A DNA stretch of 64,000 nucleotides, taken from positions 171,452 to 235,451 of the forward strand of contig JAJEKV010000076.1 in NCBI GenBank assembly GCA_021234155.1, given 5' to 3'. Position 1 is the first letter of the stretch. Every line of letters starts with the position of its first letter. This document shows positions 39,336-63,411 of the stretch, one piece after another. Under the pieces are notes generated by a model. The model saw only the letters and a program-made list of their open reading frames with translations. It ran no database searches and was not told the DNA's origin. The stretch is from Isoetes taiwanensis (lineage: Eukaryota; Streptophyta; Lycopodiopsida; Isoetales; Isoetaceae). A program made the translations under genes and the position numbers.

Positions 39336-39394
39336 CTATTTTATCTTAATGGGAAAATTACCCTTAAGTATATTTGAAACATAAATTATTCCTA

Positions 39395-39590: not shown

Positions 39591-39647
39591 GGTTGAGATC
39601 TCACCACGTGACAATAATTAAAGCAATATGAGCCATAGGATCTATTA

Positions 39648-40731: not shown

Positions 40732-41125
40732 ATGGCCGCTTCCAATTCATGCAAATCCGAACAGAGAGGCCTGCTTTGTGCCACCGGAAACTGGGGACTT
40801 CTTGGGTGTTCTATTATCAGGCCTCTTCTTTCTAAAGGCTACCATGTCTGCTGCACAATTAGCATCACACCAGGTTAGATTTGTTAATGTGGAAAAAGAA
40901 ATTTCCCTTTTTTCTGCCATCTAAAATGGCTATCTCATTTCTAAATTTTGCAAAACCCGGAGCATGCAAGTTTGATTAATGTAATCTTGCTGTGCAGAGG
41001 TGAGGCATGAGCTTGTGCATGCTTATTTGCTTAGCTACAACAGCCTTTCTAAGGCCATTAATGGCTGTGAAGGAGTCTTCCATGTTCCTGCTCCACATGA
41101 AATAATTGGCACTAGAGATTATCCA
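40732..41125 (+). pseudogene. Cinnamoyl-CoA/dihydroflavonol reductase-like two-exon fragment
   Basis: Exon 1 (40732-40873) starts MAASNSCKSEQRGLLCATGN and contains TGNWGLLG, matching the TGxxGxxG NADP-binding motif of this extended short-chain dehydrogenase family, then IIRPLLSKGYHV as in the first helix and strand. It ends at CAG/GTTAGA. Exon 2 (40998-41125) follows TGTGCAG and keeps phase: ELVHAYLLSYNSLSKAINGC, then EGVFHVPAPHE, aligning with the family's DLLDYxSLxxAIxGCxGVFH(V/T)AS block, and ends at CCA/GTAAGT. The catalytic Ser-Tyr-Lys exons (KNWYCYGK-like region) are absent, so this is a fragment of a lignin- or flavonoid-type reductase. Second-position T in TAYL for TADL is unusual. 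Confidence 0.7.
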
Positions 41126-41649
41126 GTAAGTTTGGTAAAGTTTCCTCTTGTTTTTTGTTGCAAAACTAAAGGTTACGGGCGGTTTAAAGGGAAAATGCTT
41201 AATCTCCTTTATTCTTCATGTTTAATCGATGAGCCGTCGGTTGTTACTTTATTTTTCCGTTTAATCCTGTTGCAAGGACGTCTCTGATCTTTGAATCATA
41301 CACAGTTTTCCCTTTGTTCCAGCAGAGGTTTTGCCTTTTCCAATTTCGTGCGATGATGTTGACATGGGTTTGGAGCTGCTGAAAATAAGCCAGGCAATGG
41401 ATAGGACATTTTCCAGATTTTCGGAAATAGGCTGGTTGGTTGTGCTGGAATAATAGCCACAGGTAGGCTTTATGTCGTTTGTTTTTTTGCCGGAGTTGAG
41501 CTCTGTATAAATCGGGAGACTTCATGCCAGTTTAGGGAAAGTAAAGCCAAAGGACACCAAGGTAGCTATTTGCATTATACTTCATATTGTCTTTTTTTTG
41601 TACAGATTTGACATTAAAGTCCGGTCAATATTTTTATTGTTTCTTGAAG
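41126..41649. other. Interval after the reductase exons, unit 2
   Basis: Intron-like T-rich DNA. A short reading MGLELLKISQAMDRTFSRFS (about 41361-41420) looks coding-like but cannot be placed. No third reductase exon is recognised. Confidence 0.4.
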
Positions 41650-42474
41650 GGCAGGGAGCAAGCAGCCTTAAAACAGAAATCTACTACAAAACAAGGAGTT
41701 CAAGTTGATCCAAGTGCATTAAGTGTTGTTAGAGTTCCTACTTCCACTCGGGGTGACAGAAGATCTGGTTTTGAAAGCTCAGTGATGGAGATGAACAGCA
41801 AGGCGTCTCACCATAGTCTCACCATAGCACACGCCCATTTGTCCCATTGTTGGGCCCTGAATCACAAATATTGTCACATTCCACGCATGAAGCAAACTTT
41901 GATAAAAGCCCAAAGTAAGGAAGATGTCAGAAGTTCTTGTTTGATTCTTTCTATCCTAGAGGTTAAATTTACACGAGTCTCTTCTGCAGGGCTGCGGAAG
42001 GGAACTTGTTGGCTTCAGGAAATAGAAATGTGGAGCCTGAAGTCCTTAGTGAAGCTTCTTCCCATACAAGTCCAACAAATGCAGTGATTTTATAGCTTGA
42101 AGTCTGGCATGGAGGGTCTGTGTTGCCAAATCTCAAACTATCCCATGTGCTACATAAAAAAAATGAACGTCCTGCCATCATCAGAGCTTCAAAAGCCCTG
42201 TTTTTGTCGTGAATTGGGTTGCGGGGCTTCCAACTCTACAGATTCATGCAGTTATGTGGTATATGCATATCTCGCATTTCCCATTCTAAAAATCGATCTG
42301 AGAATAGGAAGCGAGGGAGCGAGGGAGCAGGGAATGGATCTTCCAAATGGTGATTCTAATTTCTTTGCTTTACGATTACGCAAAGGGCGAGGACATAATC
42401 TTTTAAGCGTGATTCACCAAAAGTTGTTGGTAAGGCAACCGACTTCATGTCAAATTATAAATGTTACGCAATAG
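41650..42474 (+). pseudogene. Unidentified coding-like relic with long frames
   Basis: The frame ending at 42087 is open for 166 codons. Its first part (EQAALKQKSTTKQGVQVDPS, then ALSVVRVPTSTRGDRRSG) reads as a real protein. After about 41830 the better composition moves to another frame (AAEGNLLASGNRNVEPEVLS, then LPNLKLSHVLHKKNERPAII), and 42320 onward to a third (MDLPNGDSNFFALRLRKGRG). This is the pattern of a decayed gene with a few indels. I do not recognise it. It follows the reductase exons on the same strand but does not match that family. Confidence 0.4.
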
Positions 42475-43552
42475 TATAGGTAATTGAGTCTGCTTTTAAT
42501 ATAATAGGATAGAATTTAAAAGAATTCTAAATTGAGGCTGCTTGCGGATATACTTATCTATAGTCGAAAAAAAAAAATAGATATTCTTCTCCTCGAAATG
42601 ATGGCCTAGCTCGCATATATTATTTATAAATTTTCTGAATCATGTTATCGGCGGTGATTGTTGTCGATGCCTAACAAAAGCCATTGATTTTAAACATCCA
42701 GTAGTTCTTAGGCTCCTTTAACGTGTATCTATAATTTACGCAGTCCCATTGTCTAAATGGTCCTGATTTGGTTTTATTTTTCATCAGATTTGTTGTGTGT
42801 AATTTTTAACCCGAATTCCCTTACGCTAGATGTTTGTAATTCACTAAACATTGTGCTAAGGCTGTTAATGGACATCACCTCGTCTTGCAATCAAAAGCGA
42901 CAAAGCATTGAAGTCCTTGCTTACTGACATATTATTGCGCATTTTACTTGCATGATATATAACTCTTTGGCACCCTTTACTTCATTTTTCGATTCTTTGG
43001 CCCAAATATGTGCGGGCATTTTTATTTTCTGACCACAACTCAATCATTGAGGATATTAAGAAGCTAAAGCTTTTCTGCAATAGCTTGATCTAGCGTGCAT
43101 CATTGGCATCTGTCATTTGAATCACCTTGCAAAGGCACTTTGTGCCACATTGTGTTTAAATATATAAAACATCATGCGTGTTGTATTATTCAGAATATTG
43201 GAATAATGGTTAGCCTCATAAGGCAAGCTCCTTAAAACTGATTGTTTTAAAAACATCTTTCAAGATTGTCATGGTTTCCCAATTGTAGAATTCTAATTTT
43301 GACTAAAGAATCCCAATAATTGAAGATTCTCATGTTGGGTTCCCAATTGAAGGATTTTGATTTTGGCTTAAGAATCTTACTCCCAAAAGATAAAAACCAA
43401 GTTGCTACATTGCATTGAGTTGTCGAAGTAGTACATTGAACATTGATGAAGATGTTATTTTAGAAATTTGGGAAAGGATCGGTATTAGTTTCTGGAATTG
43501 TTAAGTTCCCACTGGTTGCAAGATTTATTTCGGGCAAGATATTTGGAGCATT
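42475..43552. other. Non-coding stretch, unit 2
   Basis: Counterpart of 15981-17115. No gene is seen. Differences from unit 1 become frequent here and concentrate at CTG/CAG/CCG triplets. Confidence 0.5.
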
Positions 43553-43714
43553 AGCTTCCAACCACATCAGGCAGATCTTAAGTTGAGCTTAGGCATCATG
43601 GCGAGGCACATTCTTAGGAATATGAATGAGAGTAGCTTCCAACCACATTAGGCGGATCTTAAGTTGAGCTTAGGCATCATGGCGAGGCACATTCTTAGGA
43701 ATATGAATGAGAGT
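43553..43714. repeat. 81-82-bp tandem duplication, unit 2 copy
   Basis: Counterpart of 17116-17280, starting at 43553 and 43634. Confidence 0.9.
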
Positions 43715-45959
43715 CTGAGGAGAGATGCGAATAAGAAAATATAATTTTTCAAGTCAAGCAAAATCTAGTCTTTGCCATGCCTTCTTACACGTAATTAGAG
43801 GATAACTTCGAATTTGTTGGATATAATAACATGTATTGTGATAGATTTCATATATAATTCTTGGTCATTATCATTCTTATTGCATTGTTTTTACATGGCG
43901 TTCTTGAAACTCTTAAGTTACTTCTCACGTGTTTGTCCCAACACTTGATTTTGATGCAAGGCTTGGTTGAAAGGAAATCGTTCGAATACTACATCGTAGA
44001 AAAATGTGCACCCTCACAGTACTTAAGGAAAAGTCTCCTCTTGACATGTGTGATCTTTAGAACAAGATTGTGTTAAGTATTAGCATAAAGAGATGGACAA
44101 TTGCAACCTAATGCACGGCATGCAACATTTAAATTTTGTGCGGTGAGGATCAACTACTTAGTACCATGCGGGTAGCATTTAAATTTTGAGCAAGATTCTA
44201 AAATTATACGGTCTATCTTCACGACAAGGACAAGCTCCCCATATATTCAATCTGTTCAAGAAGGCCTTTTGCGCAAATGCGAACTATGATAAATCCATTA
44301 CTAAACAAGATTAGAACAAAGACTCGGGGCCAACTTTATAGGGTTAGAACTAAAGAAATGTTGCGGCCCGGCCTTGGGCGATAAATTTCTTGTATACATA
44401 AACACACTTTGATGTGTGGGATGCATGGGTTGCTCCTTTCCATTTTGGTCATCAAATTTAGGTGTAAAATCTAGACCCACATGTTTAGATATCGTACATG
44501 GCATGCGTGCATGGCATGCGTCGCGGCGAATCTTAGTCGTTAGATCAAAAGGTGAGGATAAATCCTAGCCATTAAGTTTTTATAATAAATTGCAATGAGG
44601 TGAGGTGGCATCTTCATTAATAAAAAGGTAGCGAGGTGGCAAGCGCATTTATTAGGTGGACTTTCTAGGAAGCTTTCTCTGTCTTAATTGCCTTCAAAGG
44701 CACGTAACTTGCACTAGAGGGGGGATGAAGATGGGGCACATGCCTTGTATTCTTCTCGTCGAGAGCTTTTCAGCGGCCAGGTACTTTGGCACCCGATCCA
44801 TGTGTGTATCTTAGCATTAGGTTTCACTTTGCATTAACAATTACATACATCTTAGAAGTAAATAGCTAAACCTTTGTAATAATTCTAAACCTTGCTAATT
44901 GTGCATTGTGTAGATAATAATGTGTACCATAAAAGTGGTAGCAATGTACATTATTGCATATAAATTGGAAAATATATTTATTAGGTTATGCCTTACACTA
45001 TACCATAAAATGGCCACACTAACATAAACTATAGAATGGTCATTGTAACTCACTAAGCATTTTAACCAATGTTAACATGAATTCTCTAGATGTTAGTTGT
45101 GGGGTTAGTTGTTTTGCAATCCTTGATGCTTATTTGTTGTTGCATTTGCTCAACAATGTGATGCAAACGCATGCGTGATTGTAAAATTTCAATAATGTCC
45201 TTAAAACAATGTAGAGGCGCTTAGAGGTATCCATAATGTTCCTCTGGAGCAAGCGATGATGATTTACCATTCTAAATGAAAAATATCTTGTATACATCAA
45301 GTATGTTTCTATATAGCAACATAAATAGGCAGCCCTTACATCCTTGAAGACAATTGTCGATGCTTTATTATTTTAATTATCTTGTACACATTAGAGCGGT
45401 ATAAATGTCCTTACATTCTCATGACTATCAACCACGTGAGACAACTCATCCAGAAGGTGGTTGTAAGCGATTTCAAAGTGGCATTTGTAATGGTTATGGA
45501 CATAAAATCACTACATCTGACTAAAAGAACCCATCTTGCTACAAAGCGTAAATATCATCTAGAGAACAATGTGCTACATATAGAAAGTTTTCAAGGTTGG
45601 CGGAAGATCGAGTATGGGCTGCTTGCAAAATAGAGCCTATGAGTTCCTTGTCGATGCACTCGTGCTCTTCTTTTGTAATCCTCAGCGTCTTCAACGGCCA
45701 GATAAGCAGTTAGAAGCATACTCTATTTTGCACCAAATGTAACCATCCATATTTCTTTCTATAATTCATGCCGGCGTCTTCTTACGGACCAAAATCTTAG
45801 ATGCTCATACCAACACATTTTATGCCTATGAAAGGCTTATAAATCGAGAGTTAAAACACGGGTGGAACAAAACAGGACAAATAGTTCAAGGCCATGCTTT
45901 CTATGGAAAAAAGAGCTTAAGATGTTGTTAGTGGCTATGTTAGAACTGATAGTGTTCAT
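43715..45959. other. Long non-coding stretch with damaged GC palindrome, unit 2
   Basis: Counterpart of 17281-19560. The GC palindrome of site 2 reads TTGCGGCCCGGCCTTGGGCG (near 44361-44380) instead of a clean inverted repeat. An extra GAGGTGGCAAGCGCATTTAT word near 44633-44652 is not in unit 1. No gene is recognised. Confidence 0.5.
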
Positions 45960-46640
45960 CTCGTGTGTTTCGAGGTGGAAAGGTCACATACATTAACTTT
46001 CTTCCATATCGTGCCATGGCTATCTTTTAGTCTAATTTTTGTACTAATATTTGGAATCTATCCAAATGCAACTCCCAATGTACCCCGGTAGTAATCCTAA
46101 CAATAAATTATTCTCCCATCGAGGAATTTGTTGGCATGCCCCTCGAGTTGGACATGTTAGATGATCCAATCAGGTCCTTTACATTGTTCAATCTCGGTAA
46201 TAGTGCTCCTACTACCCGGATCATCTTCTAGCTCCTTTTCCATCCCCCGCAATTGAAGAGCTGCAGATTTAATCCTTGAAATATACTCCTCTCTCGGAGG
46301 CCCAATCTTTCAACCGTGGTGAAGATTACGGATTACAAATTTTCTTTGAGAGAAGTGTCTCTTAGGTAGATCTTTGACAATTGCTTCTTTGGCATAGCTA
46401 ATTTGCTTCGACTGTGCTATCATAGTATCATCTATAGCGCATCATTCGATTGCCTTCCAATATCGTTGGAGCCATTTCAAGAGAGCTTGTCTCTCTGCAT
46501 CATTCCCTTATTTGCCTTCGGTTGATGTTTCATCTTTAACCACATGGGCTGCATTTTGCCTTGTGATATAGCGGTCTTGGCTCATCTCAGGAAACCACAT
46601 GCGAGTCCCTTCTCTGTCAATTTGCCTCGCACCTTTATAA
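45960..46640 (-). pseudogene. Minus-strand coding-like relic, longer unit 2 copy
   Basis: The minus strand reads ARQIDREGTRMWFPEMSQDR, then YITRQNAAHVVKDETSTEGK, a stop, ERQALLKWLQRYWKAIE, a stop, IAQSKQISYAKEAIVKDLPK, then after a stop and a shift PREEYISRIKSAALQLRGME, KELEDD and the EIEQCKGPDWII part shared with unit 1. About 200 residues with few stops is good evidence of a former protein. The 46265-46785 part is missing from unit 1. I see no motif that names the family. A transposon protein or a host enzyme are both possible. Confidence 0.4.
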
Positions 46641-47779
46641 ACCAATAAAGGCATTAGCATGCGTTAGTATTTCAATTCTTCCCATCTCGCCTGGCGGGAT
46701 CAACAATCCAACGCCCGGAGGATTGACCCGATTCGATACCATATTAGAGGCGGGAAGAAATACCATCAAAAGGCATTGATCTATTGAAGGAACTCCCCTT
46801 TATACATCTTAGGAGGTGTATCATTTATGGACCTCACCGCCTTTGCTTGATTAATGGAGCAGCTAAAGCAAGCTCCTTAACTTTTGGAATTTTAGAAATA
46901 GCTAACTCTATTTTGGTGAACTCTAACAACCGGGCGTCACATGACTAAAAGTCATATTTGTTACAATATCGAGTTCAATAAATAAAAGCGTGGAATTAGC
47001 TCATCATAAAGAAATACTTAGAGCCCGTATACACTATTCTGCTTATATCTTGAAGTTTTTGTTATGCACATGATTCAGATTTACTTGATGCCGACCAATT
47101 CCTCAAGAAATCACCGCCCAAAGCTTTGCAATATCTTCTAGTCCATGTTCTTTTTTGCATATTTTAGCTTATTATTTTTGCTTGATTTCCTTATCAACAT
47201 AAAGCTTATCATCAGACTGTAAGTTATCATTTTCGTTTTTACCTAAGTATATAAAAGTGTCTACCTCACAAGTTATGCAATTGATTTCTTGTTAATGTTG
47301 GGCCGGATATGGCTGCTTCAAAATATTTATCGGATATGAGAAAGTATTCCAAGGTAAAGAGAATGGAATAAAGCAAGTGGACTATATGGAAAGGTTCGAT
47401 TTCTACATGATGAAAAAATGAGACCTCTTTTATGAAAGGTGGAATTGAAGGTATGTGTCTGAGACAAACTTGCGTATTCTTTTTTATCTTTTAGTGTGGC
47501 CTACAATGAATGGATTCTGAGCGCTTATGTTCAATATCAGAATTCCACAGCCCATTTCTCTCACGAGTCGAGGAAAATATTCTTTAGCATGAATAGAGAC
47601 ATGTACCCCTTTTGCATCCTTCATGTTGGATTGTTTTCATGAAGAAAACAATTGATTAAGCGATAAATAGAAGTTAGGTTTTAAAGCACATGATTTCTTA
47701 CTATATTAGTAAGATTAAGGCACTCTAGGTCCTTCTTTCTCTGCTACTACCTCATTAGTAAGGCTGAGGTAGTAAGATT
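46641..47779. other. Non-coding stretch upstream of the LINE relic, unit 2
   Basis: Counterpart of 19813-20829 plus the last ~150 bases of the segment deleted in unit 1. No gene is recognised. Confidence 0.45.
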
Positions 47780-49110
47780 ATTAGGTGTTTGGAGAAGCAC
47801 TTGTTACGGTGGTCCACCGCAAAGTTGTCTCTTGGGGTAGCATTCACGGTGGCCAAGTCGGTCCTTAGTAGTACCCATGTTTGTATGGCATCCTTCTTGC
47901 TAGCCCCACGGATCAGCGTCGTCGTGAGCTCATTGCAATAGTTTGGAACTTTATTTGTAGTAGTAAGGAAGGTGTTGTGCTTAAGGTGGCTTGGTGAAGT
48001 GTATCCTTCCAAGATGGGCAAGTGGTGCGGGTATGATGGACTTCTTCTTTGCTTGAGAGCAAAGTGCTTTTCAAAGTTCATTTGGAGACTCTGAATAGTG
48101 AGGATGACTCTCTGGTTCATGCCTTCTTAGACAAGCTCTTGGTCCTTTGTATCCTTCTAGGCAAGAAATTTTGTCAAACCAATCCTACCTTGGGCTTTAT
48201 TTGGGACTCTGCGGCCTTTTCCAAGTGCTTCTCCATTTTTTGCGTGGCTTGTTGGCGGCATGGGAGGCGATCGGACATCTTTTTACGGCCATGCCCCTCT
48301 ATCCACACCCTATTGGAGACTCCATGGTGGTGGGCACCACTACCTCCAGACCCCTCGGCACCTCCATTGGCGGCATCGGTTCATCCCCTTACCACGAGAG
48401 ATGATGGGTCCTTGCGGGTGTTGTCTCTATTCAAGCATAGTATGAAGCGGGTCACCCTCTTGTCTTGGCTTTGAATTTGAGGCAAAGTTCTGCTCTCTCA
48501 TTGGGATGTATCTCTATGGAAGAAGGTCTTTGAGAAAATTTGCCTCTTATAGTGCAAGTTGGTGTTCTTTGAAAGGGTGCCATGGGATTTGTCATGAAAA
48601 TATTCACAAAGGCAAGCACTTTGTCGCCTTCTTTTAGCACCACAACCCCCTCCGGTTGCGGATCTCGCCTTCTTTTAGCGTCACACATGGTGATGGCTTT
48701 GGGATAGGTTGCTCCACCCTAAAGTCTACGTATTGTAGTGGCGGGTTATCCCGCGGGTGCACAGCGGGTTAATGCCTTTCGACATCACTATGATCCTCGC
48801 ATATGCGGTATACCCGCTCTGTCTTTGGGGCGTTGAGACTCTTGAGCATTGTCTCTTTTATTGTTGTGGGGTTCAACCCAGCGTGGTCACGGCTATAAGG
48901 TTTATTTAACGGTACATTGGATTTGTCGATGCATCCTCTTGGCGTCCTATCCCAGCGCATGGCCTCCATCTAAACAAAGGGCTTCCATCTTGGTTCGGTT
49001 GGCTCTTATGGTCGATATGGGGCGTCGTAGACACCACATCTTTCAGGGCATTAATTCATCTGCACGCGATTTTATTATGGTTGCCCAGAAAAAGATATTG
49101 ACAGCCTACG
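47780..49110 (+). mobile_element. LINE 3' relic, unit 2 copy
   Basis: Counterpart of 20830-22150. It adds a piece missing in unit 1, FVVVRKVLCLRWLG in one frame or SSKEGVVLKVAW in another. That fits the FIWSSSKEG-type linker of LINE reverse transcriptases, so unit 1 has lost about 20 bases there. The zf-RVT motif ETLEHCLFYC is kept near 48835-48864. It is more frameshifted overall than unit 1. Confidence 0.7.
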
Positions 49111-49346
49111 AGTGTTCCTCCCTTGAATCAGAAATGATGGAATGCATTTGGATTGGTATCTAATTGATTCTTTCGTTAGTCTCTTATTGCGGGTAAGTAC
49201 AGCGTGCTCGGGCTCGTGTTCTGTGGCATTTTTTGTGCTTACGGTTAGATGATTGTGGCGTTCGAGGGAAATATCGCCATAAAATCGTATATTTCCGGGT
49301 CCCATCACTATACAAGTCTATCTTCATAGCCTTGTATACCATAGAT

Positions 49347-50888
49347 TGTGGCACTAGGGGGCATGACTAAGTTATTCATATAACTTAGCCAACCTTAGGT
49401 TAAGACCATTTTCCACATGGCCTTAACCTATTGGGCACCCGCCACCGCGGACTTACCCTATTGGAGCCACGTGGCATAACATGTGAACCCTAACCTATAA
49501 AGGCCTAAACCCTAACCCTAGGCCTCTTTTACGGCTCCAACGGTCAGGGAACATTCTTGGCCTTTCGAAACTCCGTTTTGAGAACCGTTCTTGTGGCCGC
49601 GACATAGCATGGCAGCCCAGGCGTGGCGCATCGGCAGGAGTGGGAGCTACCTCGAACACTTCAAAGACCATGGAGGCGCCCGGGATTGGGAGGGAGTGCT
49701 TACGGGCGGTATATAGAGTAGTGCTCTTAGTAGTTCATCACGGAAGTTAGCACTCGGATGGGTTAGCATTTAGTATCTAGAGTAGAGCCATCCTAGAACC
49801 CTTATTGAACATCTTGAACCCTAATCAAGGAACCCTAGCGTAAGTTATATATGTATGATTAGGTTAAGATGTTCTTATGATGATTATCATGATATGATGT
49901 TATGTGATGTTGGTTGATCATGTTTACTCCTCTTGTATTTGGAAGGGGGTAGAGATCTAGTAGCCATTACGTAGCATGCTCCTAGTTTAGACCCCTTAGT
50001 TCCTATTATTATGCGGCTGTGCATAGGAACCCAGGGCTATGGAGGCCATGATGTGACTCGGCACTACACAGCGGGGCTAGAGGCAATGCGGAGGGAGGAT
50101 CCCCCGGGCGGGGGGCTCTCTGGGGGATCCCATAGTGGGCTAGGCTTATGGTGGGTCACGCCGTGTGGGCGGGCATGGAGTGCGACACCTCTGGGGCAAT
50201 GGTGTCGCCCCTGCCTCTCAAGAGTTGCAAGTGTTGGCTTGGCTCTTGTTTTGGGGGTTAAGTGGGGGTATGAATGGGTGTGTGCGGCGATTCTCTAGCC
50301 ACTCGTGGAACCTCTAGACCCGGGAAGGGGAGATGCAACCCTTCCTGCCCCGCGGACGAGGGAGATGCAACTTTGGGTAGTCCAGATGGGTGATGCCATG
50401 GGATTGCGTGTCAGGAAGGCTAGAGTCATGCGAGCTTGATCTAGCCCATGCAAAGTATGCACATGAGGGGCGGATGGAGTGGTCAACCCTAGCCATTGTC
50501 TATAGCCAGCCCGCCATTGTTATGACTCGATGCTGCTCTATCTTGAGGCCTAGCCCGGTCAGTCCAACCTCCTCATGAGTCGGAGCCATGGGTAGGAGCT
50601 CTCATATTTTATGGCATATGTTTATCTTTTTGTAGCTATGGATATGTGGATGGACTACCCTTGAGGTAGTATGATGTGTTGTTATTGCTAGTTCGGCGGT
50701 GTTTATGCTTCATTTGTGATAGGAGCCCATAGGGGAAGGCGGCGCCAAGACACCGCCGTGTCCCCTTCCGCAATTAGGTGATCCCAAAGTGCGGGATAGG
50801 CGGAGGGCCCGATGCGGTCGGAGGGCCGGATGGGGGATTTCCCTCTGAGTGTGCGGCCGGGTGCGTATATTTTGTAGGGAGCATCACA
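49347..50888 (+). mobile_element. Single LTR, unit 2 copy
   Basis: Counterpart of 22397-23947 with the same TGTGGCAC start and GCATCACA end. The primer binding site that follows (50890-50900) reads TGGTATCGAGC. The CAG of the canonical site has become CG, which would weaken tRNA pairing if real but matches the CAG-site error pattern. Confidence 0.7.
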
Positions 50889-51119
50889 ATGGTATCGAGC
50901 AATGTTCTTGGTTGACCAAGAGCTAGCCACGACCATATCCTTGAATAGGTAGACTAAGCGGCTTAGCTAATAAATGGAATGGGAATTCGGTCTTGAACCA
51001 TGAAATGTGGGAGAAATTTTTTCCCCATTAGCGAGGGTCATAATTAGATTGAGTATAGTCTAAGTGAGAAATAATATAGTCAAAAGAAACCTTCTAGTAA
51101 ATTTGAGGTCAAGTTGTTC
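50889..51119 (+). other. Leader after the LTR, unit 2
   Basis: Counterpart of 23948-24179. No coding frame. Confidence 0.4.
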
Positions 51120-52520
51120 ATGAACCGCACCTTTCAAGAAAAAAATTGAGCGAGAAATCGCTCAAAGAAGCTTGAAAGAAAATGGCGTGAAATGACCACT
51201 ACTTGGCCCAAAAGAAATTAGGAAATTATGAGAAATAGTTAGGTGATTAGGGAAAGTACCTTAATTAATAACCCATAGTTATAATAAAATTACTCTTAAG
51301 AAAAGTAGCTATTAAATCTATGGAAGCACCTCTACTCCTTAGAAATTCCCAAAGAGTAGCTTGAACTGTCCTTTACCCTTGTAAAGTGAATTATAAACTA
51401 ATCTCTGAAATTTTGCCATAAGGCGTCGATCGAACAAATAGTATCGCGAGATCGACTCAAAGGAGGCTGCGAATAGACATAGTCGACAATTAGAGAGGCA
51501 AGATCGCTCGAAGAGCCACCATCAAAGAATTAAACAAGTAGCTAGGAAGGTTGGAACTCCGGCTTGCACCCGAGCGTTAAGCACTCAAGGTGGGCGGCGA
51601 CAAGCAAATTCTTGAGGCGGCGACCTAGGCGGATGGCGAACTTAGCCACTCAAGCTCTTGGACAAATTGTTCCACTCGTGGAGGAGCAATGACTTAGCAC
51701 TTGGTGAATGATCGCAAGGCTCGGGGAAATTGAGATCGTATTTGGCGTGCATACGGAGGTGAAGATCAAGTAGCAAGAGCAACCTCGGCGGTGGGCCAAC
51801 ACCGGGAAGTATAAAGCGGTGAGGAGCAAATAGCAAGAGCAACCTCAACAACAGGAGCAACCACAACACGGGAAAGAGTAGGTGTTTAAAAGCAGTTCAA
51901 GTAGCGGGAGCAACCTCGGCAATCTGAGCAACCCGGAGGGCCGTATTTTTGGGAACAACGATCAAGCGGGGGCGTTATAAAAGCAATCAATCTTGAAAGA
52001 AAAGGAAGGAAGGGGCGTAGGCAAAAAGAGCAACCGAGAAGAGGCGTGAAGCTAGGCGTAGGGGGCGTGGTTATCAAGAGAACAACAGGGCCAAACGGCT
52101 GGAGGAGGATGAGCGAGGCGAGGAGGAAAGACCACACCAACAAGAGGAGGGAGCAAGAGGCTAAAGAAGAGGAGGAGGAGGCCAAAGAAACGGCTTAGAC
52201 GTTTCGGCAACCATATCAATGCAGTCAAGGAGGGCAACATCAGTGAGAAGCTACTTAAAAGCTGAAGCAAGATATGGAGTCTGACGAGAAGAAGAAGGCA
52301 GCATGCAAGATTTATCTCCGCCAATGGATCGACAAGGTAGCCGGCCGAGGGTCGAAAAAGCAAGCCTCCACCACCTCGACTTTCGACTCTCAGAAGAAAG
52401 GTCCTCCATGGGCCAAACTCGGCACGCTTCGGGTGTTTAAGGAGATTAGGCACTTTCAGCGGTGTATTAATCTCCTAATAAGGAGCCATTCGAACACCTT
52501 CTTGAAGTAATGTCATGGGG
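51120..52520 (+). pseudogene. Gag-like relic, unit 2 copy with extra segment
   Basis: Counterpart of 24180-25430. The frame 52274-52510 joins KKKAACKIYLRQWIDKV to KQASTTSTFDSQKKGPPWAK and LGTLRVFKEIRHFQRCINLL without a break, giving the best reading of the C-terminal part. Bases near 51635-51770 are absent from unit 1 and also repeat the AGCAAGAGCAACCTC word, so a Gln-rich repeat has changed length here. Confidence 0.4.
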
Positions 52521-53561
52521 AGTTAGGACTGATTACATGGTCATACCTCTAACCACAGGGCCTGCAAGAAGCCTTAGAAGTAGAGCCTCTAAAGTGAGCG
52601 AGCTTTTATACAAGATACCATTGTGGGTTCAAAGAGGTATCCCAAGAGATCAAACTCAAATAACATCCTAAGCGGTCTTCCACTACCGATTCTAGTTGAC
52701 CTAGAGTGCATTGAGTGAAAGGGCAACTAGTTGACCGTATCGAGTTGATATTGGCTCGATTGACCATGGAAGTTGGTCTCTAGGGTAATTTGGATGATTT
52801 GGGCGTATCGAAAAGTGATACCATATTTTGAGTTTGATAGAAATTTTGGATTGGCCAAATGCTACATTTCCTCGTCATGCCTCTAATAATCATTACTTCT
52901 TTTTTAAATATACAATTGATTATATCTTTATTGGTTTCTTTGATCAACCATCCACGTTCTTCCATGTGGCCATCGGTTTATGATCTCTTGTTCTCATTTT
53001 AGTCGATCTCATTTTCATTGTGCATGCATGACTTTTTGCAAGCTGTAGACCATCATAGAAAATGGATACAATATCATCTTGATCGCTATACTCTAAACCT
53101 TTGTAGATCACCAAAGGGACAACTAAACTATATCCAACACGAAGATTTTTGGGCAATGACTAATCCTCTTCGAGAGCGGGGGATATGGGGATAAGAACAT
53201 GAAAGGGTGTACACACATATTCTTGAGTTGAAGGATGAACTTGTGCATTTCTTGGAGTGCGATCTAGGTGTACAACAAGATACTCTGCTTTGTTGTTTTG
53301 TACTTGAGATCCATAATGATTGCAAGAGCATCCCACGGCGGCTCCCAATTCTTGGCAAATTGGATCAAACTTCGGTTTAAATGGATCCATCCCTCTCTTT
53401 TGAACTCCCCTCCCATCCTTCGGAATGAACACCAAACAAATAGCACAAGAAACACATACCAATTGAATTTACAAAAAAAAATCAATTTCAATCGCACATA
53501 AAGGCACATCGGAAAAGAGTAGTTTTTGGTGCTCATTTGTTGCAAGATCATAGGCTTTTGC
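52521..53561. other. Non-coding stretch, unit 2
   Basis: Counterpart of 25431-26440. No 3' LTR or gene is found. Minus-strand frames around 53160-53551 correspond to the unit 1 frame 26387-26145, with shifts. Confidence 0.45.
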
Positions 53562-53622
53562 TTTTTTTTTTTTTTTTTTTTTCGAACTTCGTGATTGAAA
53601 ATTTTCTTTTGAAGTTATTGTT

Positions 53623-53992
53623 ATGAAATCAATGATTGGAAATTTGAAAGATGGGCTTCAAAAGCGTAATGCACGCAAATACCAAAGACAAGTTGGCTGC
53701 AAAACATTCACTATTATCAATTATTGTTTGAAAAAAAAGAGATATAAACAAGGATATTACTTCAAAATTGCTAAAAGATACAACCAAGAAATTTATCCAA
53801 AGTTGCAGGCAAAATGAAAATAATGTCATTAAGCAAAACAAGCTGTGGGCTTTGGCGGGAAGGAGGCCAAGATCAAATAGAATTGATAATTCAATCAAAC
53901 ATCGGGTTTATGGATTTTGGCTTGATAATATCAAAATTCCACCAAAAGTTAGAGATTTCATGAAGGAGAACACAAGTAATATAATACCTTGA
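53623..53992 (+). pseudogene. Basic coding-like relic, unit 2 copy
   Basis: The first half is open from 53623 (DGLQKRNARKYQRQVGCKTF, then TIINYCLKKKRYKQGYYFKI) and the second from another frame to 53992 (NSIKHRVYGFWLDNIKIPPK, then VRDFMKENTSN). It is broken at different points from unit 1, so the two copies together support one ancestral frame of ~120 residues. Confidence 0.35.
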
Positions 53993-56089
53993 TATCTCAC
54001 ATGTTTGCTCTTGTATTTGGATCAATTCTATTTTGAGATTATGTTTTCTTCTAAAATTAAGGACTTTCTTACGTATATTTGATTGCAATTTTCAGTGACC
54101 TATTAATGAATCCACATGGTTTTCATGAAATGTATTGCATCTCGGTATTTTGGCGGCGGCAATACTTGCGTCATATGCGATTAGGTACTTTTTAGACTTA
54201 AATCCCATTATGTTTACATGTACTTGAATATTACATTTACATCCATCTATTTAAATGTACTTTGAGATAATGAAGCCAAACAATAACATCACGCATTTTG
54301 AATCTTGCATTTGGTCGGAAAGCTTACAATCTCTATTCAAAGCTAGAAACAAACAAAAAACAAGCATAAATAACTTCGGTCGGACTTCGAGTCCCTTTTT
54401 TCCCTTTCAAGTGCGACATATTCTTCTCCTTGTTCTTGCAAAACCCGGAATGATGAAGTAAAGCGTCGGACTAACATCAACGGCTTCGGTAGTTGTTCTT
54501 GCATCTAAAAGCGGATGATAACCCGGTTATGGATTGGTTGTGGATGAAGAAATCGAAGGCTTGCTTGCGAGAGAAAGATGGTAGGCTAGTGTCGGATCGC
54601 ATGTCTGTAGCAGCATAACCCTAAATAAGCTTGCATTAAACCGTTTAGGATTATTTGCTGCTTTGCTCTCAAGTAAACCAGTTCTACTCCAACCTCTTGA
54701 AACCACTATCTTGGTTCCACTCCTCCTTAACCTTGCAAGCTCACCCCTGCCCTTTTTTTATCTGAAACCAAAGAGCCTTTCAAACTTGCAAGAGAAGCTT
54801 CTAGACACTTTTAGAATCTTGAGAGAGGCCCTCTAGAAACTCCAAATTAGGTTCTAGAATGAAAGGAAGTTTCTCGATGCTTCCTAAACTTTTTGAAGCT
54901 TGCGTGTTTACCATCAGAAGTGCGAGATGTGCCATGTGGCATCACCTTGGCTATCGATGGGCGTGACTTCTGGACACTATTTTTCTTATTATATAGGAGG
55001 AGGTATTATATAGGAGGAGGATTATACTATTCTAACATTTTCCATTTTCTCATTTCTCTGTTCACCATATTTACAGCGATGTCATAGACAATTTTGGGTA
55101 TCTTTCAAATATTTCCTTTCTTTGCACTATTTTCTAATTATATAGGATACAAGAATTTAAGCCTTGGTGAGCTGGAGCCCCATGCACCCACAGGACCCGA
55201 ACTGAAGTCTTGTGATTTGGAGAGGGGCGAGCATCGATCCTTACATTCCAATAGCAAAGAAAATTGTGATAGTAAAGGTGTTAAATATTCTTACATTGCA
55301 ATCATGATCTAGTTACGGCCAACAATCATACGCCCCAATTCCATATAAAGGGTCCAATTGCCAAAGCCCTTAACATTGAAAGATAGTTACCGATGTTTAT
55401 GTATTAGTGTCCATCAAATGCAAGACCAATTTTGACTATGGCATCGGCAACACATTACATGCAAGCTGTGTAAAACATCATTGGACTATGGCGAGGATTC
55501 TTGTATAGTCCTTTGTGACTTTATTTAAGCTCCAATATATGCATGGAAAAGGCTAAAATGTAAAGTTAAGGTTTTGTGATTCAAAAATTAGATGTTGGAC
55601 GAGGTAAGGTTATCGATGCGGCGAGGCTGATAACCAAAAAATGCGGTATCGAGGTTATGCGTCAGAGGCTAGAAATTTGTACGTAAGGGCAAGGCCGCCC
55701 GGGGCGAAGGCAGCCGAGGCCTTACGTGCCAAAAATATGGCCAAGGACATACAAGCTGAGCCCGCATTTTAGCCGCTCGAGATCAAGACTTCGGCGGTTT
55801 TGGCGGTCTATGGCAAAACTCTATTCATATCATCAGCCTACATCTCGGAAAGGCGATGACACCTAGGACCAGCGGTTCAATTAAAGCTAGCTGCAAAGCG
55901 GAGCGAGAAATTGATGCTATGGTGGCGGCATTATGCAAACAAGCATGTGAAGGCTGCCACATACAAGCGGGGCAAATGCTCTCCATGTCTTCTCAAAAAT
56001 ACTGTAGGAAAAGCCATTCCAAAATGTCACTAATTCCAAAAAAAAAAAAAAAAAAAAAAAATTGTTAATAATGGTATATATAGGAAGGG
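53993..56089. other. Unit 2/unit 3 junction region, non-coding
   Basis: Unit 2 passes into unit 3 at 54291 (CTGCATTTTG appears as ACGCATTTTG). There is no extra sequence at the join. The stretch repeats 26880-27172 and 1-1790. Confidence 0.55.
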
Positions 56090-56440
56090 ACGAAGCCAAG
56101 CCATCCAAGAAAGATCCTCTATCGGCATCTTGTTGAAATTGTTGTGACTCAAACAACAATTTATTGGATGGAATAGGTCTTCAACTTGACTATGTCTGCA
56201 AGCTCGACAAACTTCGGACAATGTGATACGCAAAGAAATCCACAAATTTTCTACCTCAAAAGCCAAGCCATCCAAGATAGATCCTTTATCGGCATCTGTT
56301 GAAATTGTTGTGTGATTAAGTTTGTCTATCTCCATCGTTTCAATAATTTCTTCTTTCCATCCCTATCTCTTAGCCTTTACGCAATGTCACGCAAATAACC
56401 ATTTGACTCAAACAATGATTTATTGGATGGAATAGATCTT
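56090..56440 (-). pseudogene. Duplicated-motif relic, unit 3 copy
   Basis: Counterpart of 1790-2144. The frame 56159-55917 still reads LLFESQQFQQDADRGSFLDG. The second motif copy is shifted, with KGSILDGLAFEVENLWISL intact. Confidence 0.35.
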
Positions 56441-56728
56441 GACTTGTAAGAAGCAAAGAAAATCTTACGCTTCAACAAAAACAAAATTCTCCGCCCACTC
56501 TAGAGATCAAGACTTCGAGTAGTTTTGTGATCTATGGCCTGTGGTATGGTAAGATGCCTAGGTAGATAGATATTTTGAAGATAGAGTTTTGAAGATAGAT
56601 ATTCTTACGTTGAGAAAATGAAGTCCACAGTTTTTCTAAGTGGATAAAAACCTATGCTAGATCTAGACAAAGCTTACGCATTTACGATCCTTGAGGTTCA
56701 GCAAGTAACCCTCATGTTTTGTGCCTTA

Positions 56729-57986
56729 GGACTATGGTAGGTGGCACTAGGATGGTGAGGCTAAAAAGCCATGCCCTAGAGTTGCCCCTAGGACCTAGAC
56801 TTCCTAAAAGGCGGGATTAAATCCTGCCTACAAAGTGTGCATGTAAGGCAAAAGTTTTATCCAGCGGATGTGTGGTGAGTTGGTATAGGCCTAGTAATGC
56901 CAAAATAAATGTACATTTGGTCATGGGTTCAAATTTTGCGGTTTCATTTATATTTGGAAGTTGGTTACTAGGGGTATCACGATGATGATCCACGGCGTGG
57001 TAGAACTTAAAAGCCTATATGTGTCCTCCACTTTGGTTGTCATTAAGGCTGTGGGATAAACTAGCTAGATCACGTACAAGATTAGTCTAGTATGGACCTT
57101 AAATAAAATAATAAAAATCAATGGGACTATGGTAGGTGGCACTAGGCAAGCAACCACAGAATGTTACCAACATGCCCAACACACTTAAGACACCTTATGC
57201 AATTCGTAATTATTATATTTAAGAAGTTATAAGTGACTTTGTATGCAATGAGGATCATAGGACATACTCACGGGGAGACCCAAAAACTTCGGGGATTAGA
57301 CATGCTTCTAAGAGGAGAAGGAGAAGGAGAATACTTGAGTGAAGCACTTACTTAGCAGGGACATCTTTATACCTAGGGATGAATGAACTCGTACCAAAAT
57401 TTATGACAAACTGGCGGATGATTAGTTTAAATTTGTTGGTTGAATTGGTCAATCAAAAATAAAATTATGCGAGAAAAGAAATTGATCAACTTCATGTCTA
57501 TGAAGAATAAACTTGAACCCAAAACCGGTAAGCAAAAAGCCATGCCCTAGAGTTGCCCCTAGGACCTAGACTTCCCTAAAGGCGGGATTAAATCCACGCC
57601 TACAAAGTGTGCATGTAAGGCAAAAGTTTGCGAGCGGATGTGTGGTGAGTTGGTATAGGCCTAATAATGTCAAAATAAATGTACATTTGGTCATGGGTTC
57701 AAACCTTGTCGGTGTCATTTATAATTGGAAGTTGGTTACTATGGCGTGGTAGCCTCCACTTTGGCTGCCCCCAAGGCTATGGGATAAACTAGCTAGTGCG
57801 TACAACATTAGTCTAGTATGGACCTTAGGCGAAGTAATGAAAAATCAATGGGACTATGGTAGGTGGCACTAGGATGGTGAGGCTAAAAGCCATGCCCTAG
57901 GACCTAGACTTCCTAAGGCGGGATTAAATCCACGCCTACAAAGTGTGCATGTAAGGCAAAAGTTTTGCCCAGCGGATGTGTGGTGA
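56729..57986 (+). mobile_element. SINE-like cluster with copy A of the dispersed repeat, unit 3
   Basis: Counterpart of 2461-3719: SINE-like element (56729-57146), dispersed-repeat copy A (57147-57525), partial SINE-like copies (57531-57986). The B-box-like GGTTCAAATT near 56928 is kept. Confidence 0.5.
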
Positions 57987-59872
57987 ACCCTAAAATCGAA
58001 GAACACTAAATCGACAATTCCACTAGTAGTAGCTCCAACTTTGTTCTAGAATTGCCCAAATTCACGAAAATCACTAGGGATTAGCTTTCTACCGATTTTG
58101 GCCTGCATTAGCTCGATTTTTAGGTTACGATGGTTGATTTTTATTGTCCATGCATCGTTCGAGTGTTTTCACAAATCGGCTCCATTACAGCGAATCTACT
58201 AATGAATCGTTCTAAACCGAGCACCCGTTGAAGCGGCAAGAAGCGTAATTTTTTTGTTCGACATTTTTTGCAGCGTGGCTTCGACGTGGCGATGGCCAAG
58301 ATCTTGGTCAGGAGATAACCCCCGACCAAAAGCAGGTTGCTTGCCAGTTTCGGAGAAAAAGAATGTCAAAAGCTTGAGAAAAGCACAAAACTCTATTCAT
58401 ATGCATCATTCTACATCTCTGGAAGGGCAATGATTTTCAATTAAAAGCTAGCGCAAAGCGAAGAGAAATTGATGCTATGGTGGCGTTATACAAAAAGCGT
58501 GAAAGGCGGCACATACAAAGCGGGGCAAATGCTATCCCGTCTTACCAGAAAAGTCACTAATTCCAAAAATCTTTTTTGCTAGTAATCATATATATCGGAA
58601 GAATTATACTATTCTAACATTTTCCATTCTCATTTCTCTGTTCACCATATTGTTCACCATATTTACAACCATGTTATAAACAATTTTGGAAATATTTCCT
58701 TTCAATGCAAAATGTGATGGCCGTTTCATGTCTATAATGACACTTTCCTTAAGCCTCAAATAAAGAGAGAAAATATGCCCCATTATTTTACGCTCTCAAT
58801 TACAGTAGGTGATTTTTTAAGAATCTCCATGTAGAAAGTTATAATCACTTTACTATGAGCATTATCCAAGGCGTACTCAAGTATCAAGTCGCGTTACTCA
58901 AGTCGAGGAATAGAATGTTTGAACAAACATGGACAACATGATTATCTATGCGACCAACTAAGACTCCGTGGGAGAGCTAATTGCAAATATATATTGATGC
59001 TCAAAAGTCACATCACGCAAAATGCAAAAAGTAACAAGAGTCATGCAAATGAGCTCAATGAAGTGCCCAACATAATATCATTGACATAAAGAAAAGAGGC
59101 AAACAAAGTAGATAACATGAACTTAGACTAAAGGCGACCTAGTAACTCACGGGAGCATAGATATTTGTCAAGGTCTTACATTAAGTATGCAAAGCGGCTG
59201 CCATTGGCCTTGTCTCCTCCTTAGCCATCACAACCAACCTCCATTGAGTAAAAAAGAATTGAAAATATTAGTGGAGAAACTTCCTATTAAGTATGGTAAA
59301 AATTTTAACATGCCATGCCCCAATCAATATTCACCTCACTTGAGGGATCCACGATTCGACAACTTACACTAACTTACACTAAGTGGCGCGGTGGAATAAT
59401 TGCGACACACAATTTGAGGTTCATAACATTTCGGTAGTAGTGATGCCAATCTAGATAGGCCCTATTTCATCGGGGAGCACAAAATAGAAGCATGTATCAA
59501 ATCCATCATCTCTCAATGAATGGAGATATAAATGGATGTAAAGAAAGATATGTCTATCACTAAAAGGAAAAATACACAAGAAAACTTTGATCTAATTCAG
59601 TGAGCCCCTCACGAGGTGAGATGCGGACATGCACTGCATTACTGCGGTTATTATAGCCAAATGTTTATTTCTAAAATAAATCAAAGCGAGAACACATCAA
59701 AATCTTAGCATTTGAAGCACTAAACTTTATCGTCCTAGCAAAATGCCTTTGGTTGGGCGATACTTTCTCGATCATTTCTGTACCAAGCATCCAAGAGCCA
59801 CCTTTATGGTAAAGGCACAAAGCTTTGAAGCCTTTTAATATATTCTTTTTGAAACAAGAGGCTCTACCACGC
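57987..59872. other. Non-coding stretch with minus-strand debris, unit 3
   Basis: Counterpart of 3720-5598. Around 58860-58920 about 80 bases of unit 1 are missing and the rest is scrambled, the worst local disagreement in the window. The minus frame 59907-59671 retains AKILMCSRFDLF and RTIKFSASN from the coding-like debris. Confidence 0.45.
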
Positions 59873-60250
59873 AAGCAACCACGAGATGTTACCAACATGC
59901 CCAACACACTTGAGACACCTTATGCAATCCGTAATTATTATATTTAAGAAGTTAGAAGTGACACGTATGCAGCAGGGATCATAGGACATACTCACGGGGA
60001 GACCCAAAAACTTCGGGGATTAGTCATGCTTCTAAAGAGGAAGGAGAAGGAGAATAACGGTGAAGCACTTACTTAGGGACATCTTTATACCTAGGGATGA
60101 ATGAACTACGTACCAAAATTTATGACAAACTGGCGGATGATTAGTTTAAATTTGTTGGTTGAATTGGTCAATCAAAAATAAAATTATGCGAGAAAAGAAA
60201 TTGATCAACTTCATGTCTATGAAGAATAACATTGAACCCAAAACCCGGTA
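59873..60250. repeat. Dispersed ~380-bp duplication, copy B in unit 3
   Basis: Counterpart of 5599-5982, leading into AGACTTGGGCTACC as in unit 1. Confidence 0.8.
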
Positions 60251-61149
60251 AGACTTGGGCTACCTAAAAGCGGTATACCTACTTGGTGTCGGTTTTATTT
60301 GCTCGCATGATCGGACAAAAAGCGCACAACTAATAACACATAAGGTTTTGGTTTGTAAGTCACAATTACAAACCGAAATGGGCAACATAAAACAAATTCC
60401 GCCTTGCTTGCTTTCATCTTTGAATCCTCTAGGGCGCCCATAAACCCTAAAAAATTCGACTTTTAATCTTGCCCTTAAAGTCATTTTGCGGAAGTGATTT
60501 GCTGATTTCTTTGATTCAACCCTAGCTGATCTTGCGGTCGATTCGGACCATTTTTGTGATTATTTGCCTTATCCAAGCAAGCGTGAGCTCTGCCGGGGGA
60601 TATACCTTTGTAACTTCTGAGGAGGAAGAAAAAAACCCTTTTTCAAAATCGGATAAAAGCATGGCGGGAAGAAATTTATAGGGCAAAAGGTTAAAAGGTA
60701 CAAAGAAATTTTCGCGGCCAGAGGCCTTGAACATTCTCTTCTTCACTTCACTTCACTTCACTTGGATTTCAACTTTCGGATAGCGAGGGTTTTGCGGGGT
60801 TTTCGAGCAAAAAAGCCAATAGTGAAGCTCAAGTCATTGGGCGCATTATGTAAGTCGGTCTGATGCGGTCCTATTCGAGGGATTCTTTCTTCAACAACTA
60901 AGGTTTTCGATAGCTAAATATGTAATTAGCACCATGTTTATTTGAAATTTTTAATTTCTTATCGCATTTTCTTATCACCTTGTGAGTTCAAAGTTTTTAT
61001 TATTCCACCACTTCTCATCACCTTGTGCTTATGGGAAGGTGCGAGGTGCTAAACTAAAATTATATATTCTGATGTTGATTTTGTATCAAAGGGAGACAGA
61101 CCTAGCATTTCTAGAAAGAGGTTCATTTCAAAACGTTAGATATTGGCAT
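60251..61149. other. Interval with microsatellite and former 6372 frame, unit 3
   Basis: The leader-like block, one-armed GC palindrome (near 60685-60730), CTTCA tract and single copy of the 48-bp unit are all recognisable. The plus-strand frame of unit 1 is broken by several indels here. Confidence 0.5.
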
Positions 61150-61850
61150 CAAAGCTTGACCCTTGAAGCCAAATTATATGACTTTAGCGTTGTTATCACG
61201 TATAGGCAACCAAACTATTTCCTCCTCCTTCAATTTCATTCCTTCATCTGCACTGCTATCTTATTCATCCTAAAGCCTTTCCAATCCATCCCACTCTGCC
61301 CGCTCGGACCACTCTGTTGCTCCAAGCTCCTTCAATTATTTGTATTCATCATCTTTAGACTCAACAAAAGACAGAATAATCTACCGGATCCTCTAGATAT
61401 CGTCTGAACTTCCGGCTTTACCTCTTTCTTTTATCTTTTCACTTATTGCCTAAAAGAATAGGCTGTCTGAAACATGCCTCTTCTCTATTTGCCCGTTGAT
61501 AGTCCGCGTACAGCCTTGGCAATTTCTATCTGACAACAATATTTTTTGCATCCAGCAATGCCCATCTGTTATTTTCAAGATATATCCGTTGAGAATGCTC
61601 CGCATAATAAACATCTTCTTTCTTTATTTCTGTGATGGAATCCTTCTTCTGTTGTGCACACTCAAATTGAGAATGTTACTTGGTATGGCGACCCCATTGC
61701 ACCGACTGCCAATTTCTTTTAGAATTTGAAGCCATTGGACTGTCCTGCAATTCCATTCAAAGCTGTGACATGATTGCTGAACAACAAATGAGCTATGAGT
61801 TCCACATGATGCCATTGACATAGTTGACGATGCATTTTCAGAATGATTAC
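61150..61850 (-). pseudogene. Acidic and SMASCGTHSS relics, unit 3 copies
   Basis: Counterparts of 6924-7190 and 7268-7640. The minus frame 61821-61624 reads SMASCGTHSSFVVQQSCHSF, then EWNCRTVQWLQ, the same frame that looked most protein-like in unit 1. This strengthens the case that it is the true one. Confidence 0.35.
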
Positions 61851-62104
61851 ATGCAGTAGCAACAGGTGTGAATAAATATATATATGCTTTGTAGGTTGTT
61901 TGGAATTTAACCAGCTCTACATGAATGCATGCTAAAAACAGAATGAAAGGACAACGCTGAACTCCCTAAAGTTATGTGGCACTTCCATCAAAGAATGAAT
62001 GCCTGTCACAGGTAAGACATGAGGCTTATAAGCATCCTTGAATAATTTAGCAAAATAAAGGGAAGGCTAAGCTGGCATGATTTAGACAAAATAGCGTGCA
62101 GTAA

Positions 62105-62302
62105 GCAAACATGAAAAAGAGAGAAATAACTCTGACGGCGAGAATTTTTTGCATAAATCTGAAAATGTAGTGCAGCAAAAAATCATCAAGGCCAAATGAA
62201 AACATACAACTAAAGAAATAGCTCTGGCCGGCCGGAAATTTTTTATAAATCTGAAAATGTAGTGCAACAAAATCATCAAGGCCAAATAAGAGAAAACATA
62301 CA
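62105..62302. repeat. ~95-bp tandem duplication, unit 3 only
   Basis: GAGAAATAACTCTGACGGC through AAGGCCAAATGAAAACATAC is followed at once by a second version, GAAATAGCTCTGGCCGGCCG through GGCCAAATAAGAGAAAACAT. Unit 1 has one copy at 7875-7965. Confidence 0.85.
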
Positions 62303-63411
62303 ACTTTCTGCAGCATATGATGATGCCTCATATATTGATGCCTGAATATATTTATCTAAAATCATGGTATCTGAAAGCATCTGCAAGTCTATGAAATAGT
62401 AGATCACGGCCAACCAATATTTAAATTGGAGGCTGAAGATTGCTGGCCACAGTGAGGAAGATGCTGTGATTCAGGTTGATAAACGGGAAATCGATTAGGT
62501 TCAAGAACTGAAAGAATGCGGAAGCATGTTATGGATTGGCATCGCTTGGTTGAGGGCGCAGCCAGATTGACATGAAGTCTGCGACATGTAAATTAGCCAC
62601 GCCACTAACTTTATAGACTGCATCCTTAATGATGCTGGGCTTCTGGCTATGAACAGGGACGCCAAAACCAGAGCCTTCTCATTACCTTTTACACCCAAGC
62701 TTAAGAGTATGAAGCACAAGCATCGCCCACAGCAGGCACCATTAGATTTAGCATGCAAGCTCGAGTTTTCAAAGAGCAAAATTGCGTTCATGTTTCTCAC
62801 AAGAGAATCTCTGCCAATGGCGCCAGCGTGGGACGAATTCTTCCGGCATCACAATCAGGGATTTCAATTGTTTTGAGGCAGAAATTTGGTGCTGCTTCAT
62901 CGACCGATCAAGCAGCATCGAAGTATCTGTTCTGGGTCATCAAGATATGCCTGTGTACCTTTACGGTGACCATAAGCCCATATTTTCTGATAATGTAAGC
63001 TTCACGCCGCTTAAACCTGAATCATTGAACTTATTTCCGGGGCTTTTCTCAACAATACTGCATCTACCACCTTTCTTGAACACTGCATGAACACTGCCGG
63101 AAGATTTGGCTTCCTTGATGAAGTTCTTGCACTAAAGCCATCATCTCAAACAGTGTAGGACTGCCTTATCCAAGCAACTGTGATTTTTTTGTGATTATTT
63201 GCCTTATCAAGCAACTGTGAGCTCTGCCAGGAGATACCACTGTAACTACGGAGAAGAAGAAACCCTTTTCGAAATCCGGCCGGAAGAAATTTATAGGGCA
63301 AAAGATTTAAAAGGTAAAAGGAAAAAGATAGAAGTAGAGGGTAATTATAAGAAGTCCAAGGCTATAAGCACCACCAACAAATAAGCAAAACAACCGAATC
63401 TGCTTCATTTC
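62303..63411. other. Interval upstream of the peptide frame, unit 3
   Basis: Counterpart of 7966-9106. The splice-donor-like CAG/GTAAAT of unit 1 is lost here (AATGCGGAAGCATG). The leader-like block is present at 63175-63290. Confidence 0.45.

Follow-up and report, generated by a model that had tools for sequence, protein, structure and literature searches.

Nanopore base-calling errors that follow DNA modification have been described in bacteria: excerpts of the reports cited here and below place modification-mediated errors of Listeria at the motifs GCTGG and GCAGC (PMC10687267) and, for Klebsiella, describe an A/G ambiguity at RACG that depends on the strand (PMC11610573). In plants, lower nanopore read accuracy is put down in such excerpts to methylation as a likely cause (PMC9749173, PMC7501810), and CCG is given as under-represented among methylated CHG sites (PMC5221884). 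Here we analyse a 64-kb stretch of the 1.66-Gb Isoetes taiwanensis assembly (positions 171452-235451 of the contig that we call C1085; hereafter ‘the window’), which holds two full copies (A and B) of a ~27-kb tandem unit and about a third of another (C), and whose right-hand part, from the middle of B onwards, differs at many sites from the other copies of the unit (coordinates in Table 1). From the patterns in its letters we consider it very probable that the differences in this zone are nanopore miscalls at methylated cytosines, left at a thinly covered end by one or few reads of a single strand of native DNA.

Private changes were polarised by comparison with further copies in the genome; C was tested over the homologue of positions 1-3000 of A, and B over 47-51.6 kb of the window (a filter that accepted as private only what is absent from every other copy was abandoned, since same-site errors recur across copies and the filter lost signal). 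Per kb, C carries 42.7 and B 60.6 private changes (A: 5.3 and 8.6 in the same two regions); the remaining copies lie between 10 and 51, and the totals of C and B are therefore not exceptional, but the changes of the others are not concentrated at CAG/CTG. Such sites were privately changed at 20 of 29 positions in C (69%) and 47 of 59 in B (80%), as compared to 0-11 sites each (0-39%) in the remaining copies. The top values among the latter belong to L010 (11/28), L022 (10/31), L011 and L013 (8/27 each); L010 and L011 carry one-stranded patches (see below), and the strand signatures of L013 (2:1) and L022 (1:1) are ambiguous. The other contexts gave 12/21 (57%) in C and 17/36 (47%) in B for CCG/CGG, 28/70 and 68/154 for the remaining CG triplets, 54/835 and 114/1322 for CHH-type triplets or their complements, and 21/567 and 23/590 for AT-only triplets; the nominally higher rate of CAG/CTG over CCG/CGG concerns few sites and may include letter effects. 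An unpolarised ranking of all 64 triplets, with copy A as the reference, covered the C part and 46.8-54.3 kb of B (42.2-46.8 kb dropped out because chaining discarded overlapping pieces, and is covered by the strand and event counts given below); its ten highest places went exactly to the ten triplets containing CG or CHG (0.85-0.33; the eleventh at 0.31). The clustering at CAG/CTG/CCG and CG sites that a first-pass annotation of the window had noticed is thus borne out, as is the strong CHG/CG enrichment that it expected from a tabulation of the copies by trinucleotide context. The six strings quoted there as examples each occur once on the plus strand, at most 12 bases from where they had been placed (at 22575, 49526, 17675, 44113, 85 and 54374).

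Changes at methylatable contexts, together with the genuine-looking C>T decay found in clean copies (see below), would also suit real divergence, be it through methylation-driven decay, repeat-induced mutation or a mutator that targets methylated CHG. The spectrum, however, speaks against it: C>T plus G>A single changes make up 50 of the 847 events counted in the zone (41.9-60.9 kb) versus 38 of the 247 in the control part of A and B, so that the excess expected of deamination or repeat-induced decay is not present, and the annotation was right to hold that the differences are not deaminations. In the same sets of events the changes are strongly one-stranded, with A>G outnumbering T>C by 76 to 6 (control 5 vs 13), CAG>CGG its mirror by 25 to 2 (control 3 vs 2), CTG>ACG by 19 to 1 (control 1 vs 0), ACG>GCG by 25 to 0 (control 0 vs 2) and CCTG>CTG by 9 to 0. 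CAG>CGG, ACG>GCG and CTG>ACG are the commonest among the change types counted; two of them had been named before, together with CTG>TTTG, which proved rare (2), while the strand asymmetry goes beyond the earlier observation. Counted in 500-base bins, this plus signature spans the zone and is sparse outside it, where scattered signatures of both orientations occur in A and B, above all in the part of A opposite 41-42.5 kb of B.

Moreover, the same signature appears elsewhere in the genome in both orientations. In the 23 copies compared over A1-3000, a signature occurs at least four times in nine, C not counted: plus patches (plus:mirror counts) are found in C (19:0), L010 (12:0), L036 (9:0), L033 (7:0) and L007 (7:2), and mirror patches in L029 (0:9), L011 (0:7), L034 (0:7), L014 (0:4) and L030 (1:7). 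At three CTG sites (near 1952, 2117 and 2196) the plus patches read ACG and the minus patches CCG or CTCG, and at a fourth (2020) the C is lost in plus patches and the site reads CCG in minus ones, i.e. the wrong base at one and the same site depends on the strand (the strand read being taken from the mirror patterns). Since such mirror pairs at one site are unlike inherited change, we argue that the changes are sequencing errors. Real divergence is further opposed by a one-strand lean that holds across ~19 kb, by the many indels that accompany the zone changes and by the ending of the zone at a run of N; we deem it extremely unlikely, and decay or a mutator was rejected on the grounds of the spectrum, the mirror patches and the same-site strand dependence.

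At the left edge of the zone, the differences of B from A over A14500-16500 number 3 in the initial 1,250 bases and 20 in the 750 that follow, which places the edge at ~42.2 kb. Toward the window end the polarised rate of AT-only change climbs (from 4% at 60-61 kb to 8%, 24% and 12% thereafter), a rise toward the N that a thinly covered contig end would explain; just beyond the window lie at least 10,000 N (locus L038, all N), as a gap or a withheld stretch. The extent of 42-62 kb proposed in the first-pass annotation therefore holds for the start and fails for the end, given that raw errors reach the end of the window and the CHG/CG bias stops earlier, at ~60.9-61.07 kb (between A6640 and A6832, according to the site list of L029, L030 and C). 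With copy A as reference (unpolarised), changed CAG/CTG sites drop across this border from 91/121 to 13/78 in C, from 100/121 to 3/78 in L029 and from 74/121 to 0/78 in L030. Copy C nevertheless remains raw in the gene-like segment to the right of the border, where it shows changes at 65/395 AT-only, 28/224 CHH and 13/76 CAG/CTG triplets, and A>G still exceeds T>C (18 vs 5). A similar picture is given by L072, with 26/31 CAG/CTG sites changed left of the border and, in the segment, 15/76 (AT-only 55/395, CHH 47/224); it is indel-rich, has T>C 15 vs A>G 4, and its left-hand CAG/CTG changes are of non-decay types in 35 cases vs 2 of decay types. L072 is probably a raw copy of the mirror kind with the same border.

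These counts bear on the view that the base-caller is weak at CTG, CAG and CG by reason of the local letters alone, methylation being irrelevant, which draws on the fixed contexts and on the recurrence of errors at the same sites across copies. If the letters sufficed, the loss of the CAG/CTG bias within the raw segment of C, and probably within that of L072, would not be expected; when C was matched by pentamer, 12 of 74 segment sites were changed versus the 56.1 expected from left-side rates, and 20,000 stratified permutations yielded no value as low. We extended the comparison to a census of the segment (positions 7001-9000 of A), comprising its 24 best matches in the genome (reference A included) and copy C of the window, i.e. 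24 copies besides A; the matches were drawn from the best 40 of 137 candidates, and weaker partial matches lie outside the census. In 20 of the 24 copies, 0-4 CAG/CTG sites are changed out of the 76 present (57 for L080 and L081), and C and L072 have the 13 and 15 already given. In L069 and L070, by contrast, 58/76 and 49/76 are changed, with few changes at CHH (6/224 and 3/224) and AT-only triplets (19/395 and 12/395); the changes take forms such as CTG to CCG or CG and CAG to CAAAG, include 1 and 3 single C>T and no G>A in either copy, and in L069 lean 16:1 toward the mirror signature. The plain reading is that the segment would be CHG-methylated in L069 and L070 and not so in C, L029 and L030. 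Identical CAG/CTG letters are thus spared or changed according to the copy (whose modification state is a matter of interpretation), and are largely spared right of 61.0 kb in spite of an equal or higher random error, which argues for methylation and not for letter context. The copy census and the pentamer match led us to reject letter context alone, and we regard it as highly improbable.

Another possibility is that the miscalls are real and that the difference between flank and segment merely reflects where polishing or accurate reads did their work. In keeping with this, L029 and L030 have less error of every kind on the right of the border, a drop to which polishing could contribute, and L069 is less changed left of the segment (17/41) than within it. 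C, and probably L072, nevertheless lose the CAG/CTG bias while staying raw across the border, and L069 and L070 are biased precisely where 20 other copies are not, at the low CHH rates given above. Furthermore, uneven polishing can hide a methylation record and cannot create one; as the sole cause of the flank/segment difference we judge it improbable, if less so than letter context.

A second line of comparison is offered by deamination, which we counted in copies chosen for being clean, those with strand signatures being set aside (eight copies for the left flank, A1-3000; 20 of the 24 for the segment, with C, L069, L070 and L072 dropped). In the left flank, C>T-type change affects 37/1002 CG (3.7%), 34/1131 CHG (3.0%) and 43/6439 CHH sites, next to 49/12234 transitions at A/T (0.40%); the corresponding segment values are 1/1476 (0.07%), 2/3378 (0.06%), 6/10864 and 17/23154 (0.07%). 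It looks as though the left flank has long been methylated and the segment of the clean copies has not, and this decay at CG and CHG in the flank, with hardly any in the segment, agrees with the changed and spared sides of the miscall border. CAG/CTG triplets are enriched in the segment (observed/expected 1.63 and 1.54, as compared to 0.34-1.08 in the remaining 1-kb bins of the unit).

The explanation that we favour would run as follows. The zone would be the end of an assembled piece where coverage was thin: one or few nanopore reads of native DNA, all of the same strand, would have supplied its letters with hardly any polishing, and the base-caller would have been untrained for plant CHG methylation. 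5-methylcytosine in CHG (less so in CG) would shift the current, so that neighbouring bases are miscalled repeatably and in a strand-dependent manner (for the strand of the zone, CAG to CGG, CTG to ACG and ACG to GCG); many overlapping reads of both strands, or accurate ones, would yield a correct consensus, and with few reads the miscalls would remain. The pattern of spared and changed CAG/CTG would then report the methylation of the molecule or molecules read, with methylated repeat flanks and, right of 61.0 kb, a gene-like segment largely free of the mark. What can be seen in the letters is the bias by context, the asymmetry between strands, the mirror patches, the dependence on strand at single sites and on copy, the border and its agreement with deamination; it is the nanopore platform, 5-methylcytosine as the mark, the origin in one or few reads and the read depth that we infer. 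With regard to the annotation's proposal of base-calling errors at methylated CHG/CG cytosines, the strand and mirror patterns, the dependence on copy and border and the agreement with deamination lend it support, the mark and the platform again being inferred.

Several observations weigh against this explanation, or at least against parts of it. Copy A, our main reference, is itself without 21 of 30 and 20 of 31 of the CAG/CTG sites that B has in its 33-kb and 41-kb bins, with mixed signatures; at the stretches of A concerned (~6000-6600 and ~14500-16000), either A carries small suspect patches or the sequence is specific to B. True divergence, and not raw error, may account for L072, and the fall of total error at the border in L029 and L030 counts here as well. 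In the segment C retains a slight plus signature (4:0; 5:0 in a second count), which would reflect either partial methylation of C in that stretch or the presence of some errors of this type that methylation does not cause. Some A>G changes before C in CHH context (AAC to AGC) in the raw tail (61100-64000) may stem from CHH methylation or plain base-caller error. The signatures of L070 are mixed (mirror 9 vs plus 6), and the left flanks of L069 and L070 are changed too (17/41 and 5/12), below the segment rate, the contrast between flank and segment being significant in L069 (p 1.4e-3) and not in L070 (p 0.2). Segment divergence is low in every context (the A/T transitions included, at 0.07% vs 0.40%), which implies that homogenisation or constraint contributes too. 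Finally, clean copies may have been built from accurate reads and would then be uninformative on methylation, and the informative ones are few (C, L029, L030 and probably L072 vs L069 and L070).

When set beside the bacterial modification-mediated errors, those described here are alike in being confined to motifs, tied to modification and left in the consensus (PMC10687267), and in that the strand read sets the wrong base (PMC11610573); in the excerpts of these reports, however, the motifs are few and strain-specific, whereas here CG and CHG sites of a eukaryotic repeat array are concerned, with errors that come and go with contig position and from copy to copy. The loss of nanopore accuracy in plants (PMC9749173, PMC7501810) shares the proposed cause, i.e. 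native plant DNA met by a general base-calling model, but the excerpts of both reports treat read accuracy and contain no link to CHG triplets, no strand asymmetry and no methylation record in consensus errors. DeepSignal-plant (PMC8514461) and DeepPlant (PMC11971355), as excerpted, call CG, CHG and CHH methylation from raw nanopore signal, while we used finished letters alone. The lean of CAG/CTG over CCG fits CMT-type CHG methylation as excerpts of PMC5221884 present it, including the under-representation of methylated CCG, although methylation is here read off miscalls, the rate of which varies with the letters as well, and letter context may contribute to the lean. Modification-mediated nanopore errors are already known, and the twist lies in a CHG record that an assembly retains copy by copy; in the portions of the open-access literature on nanopore errors, methylation and plant base-calling that we covered, no use of consensus errors as a methylation record was found.

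We lean, with moderate confidence, towards the wider claim that leftover errors of nanopore assemblies amount to a copy-resolved map of CHG methylation even in near-identical arrays, and that in the present case this map includes a methylation border within the unit along with two silenced epialleles; the latter, as proposed, are the copies at C1034:6,586,968-6,589,410 and C1034:5,633,275-5,635,726, among 25 segment copies. If true, public assemblies would hold a free methylation record for repeats, silenced array copies included, that needs no new sequencing and extends to near-identical arrays that can hardly be mapped by short-read bisulfite sequencing. The evidence supports treating the differences as an artefact where they are taken for features of the DNA of the organism, and as informative on methylation borders and single-copy state where they are taken as a record. 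Array copies scored at 90-93% identity owe part of their divergence to base-calling noise, and estimates of divergence, dating and gene conversion in repeat arrays can be inflated by such miscalls.

Table 1. Tandem unit copies, error zone and segment features of the 64-kb window (window coordinates).
Feature	Position	Strand	Remarks
Unit copy A	1..27172	+	Mostly clean; judge for B and C; suspect patches at ~6-6.6 and 14.5-16 kb
Unit copy B	27173..54292	+	Mostly clean to ~42.2 kb except for a mixed patch at 28.2-29.2 kb; error-rich beyond
Unit copy C, partial	54293..63994 (end approximate)	+	Errors throughout
Raw, hardly polished stretch with one-stranded errors	42200..64000	+	Sharp left edge; right edge runs into N
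CHG/CG-specific miscalls within the raw stretch	42200..60980	+	CAG/CTG changed at ~60-90% per 2-kb bin
Unmethylated-like segment of the raw stretch	61073..63994	+	Random errors persist; CAG/CTG changed about as often as other letters
Equivalent segment in copy A, census reference	7001..9000	+	CAG/CTG-rich (observed/expected 1.63 and 1.54 in its two 1-kb bins)
GT14-like fragment in an open stretch	8394..8675	+	Core-2/I-branching (PF02485), below the Pfam cut-off

Window 7001-9400, around the segment, is 97-100% identical in 16 of its 24 best matches (A included), and matches of similar length to A1-1500 are mostly at 90-96%. Together with its equally low change in all contexts, this would point to recent homogenisation, or to constraint acting on a piece that resembles a gene. 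A fragment resembling Core-2/I-branching enzymes (Branch) in the segment scored 22.1 bits against a cut-off of 23.4 (E 1.3e-4). Of the 20 open reading frame stretches compared to Pfam none gave a clear family, the 19 besides this fragment having no match or E >0.02, and a genome search with PF02485 had no array locus among the matches listed.

The unit forms part of a very large array, made up of whole ~27-kb units and of pieces of them, some inverted, that lies on two contigs (C1034 at 5.1-6.7 Mb, and C1085 from its start, which falls inside the array, to 235 kb; loci L001-L024, L029-L046 and L048-L081). The two contigs could be different haplotypes, or else the two ends of a single array. 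Further copies of the unit were found by genome searches in which the best 40 candidates were scored per search. In copy B, 13 of the 20 CAG/CTG sites of window 28200-29200 are changed, with a mixed strand signature. Window 22305-23300 is a dispersed high-copy repeat, with thousands of first-look candidates and matches across many contigs. In L036+L068, all contexts are highly changed at unit positions 10-11.5 kb (59 and 49 events in two bins), perhaps as a raw or a truly diverged stretch.

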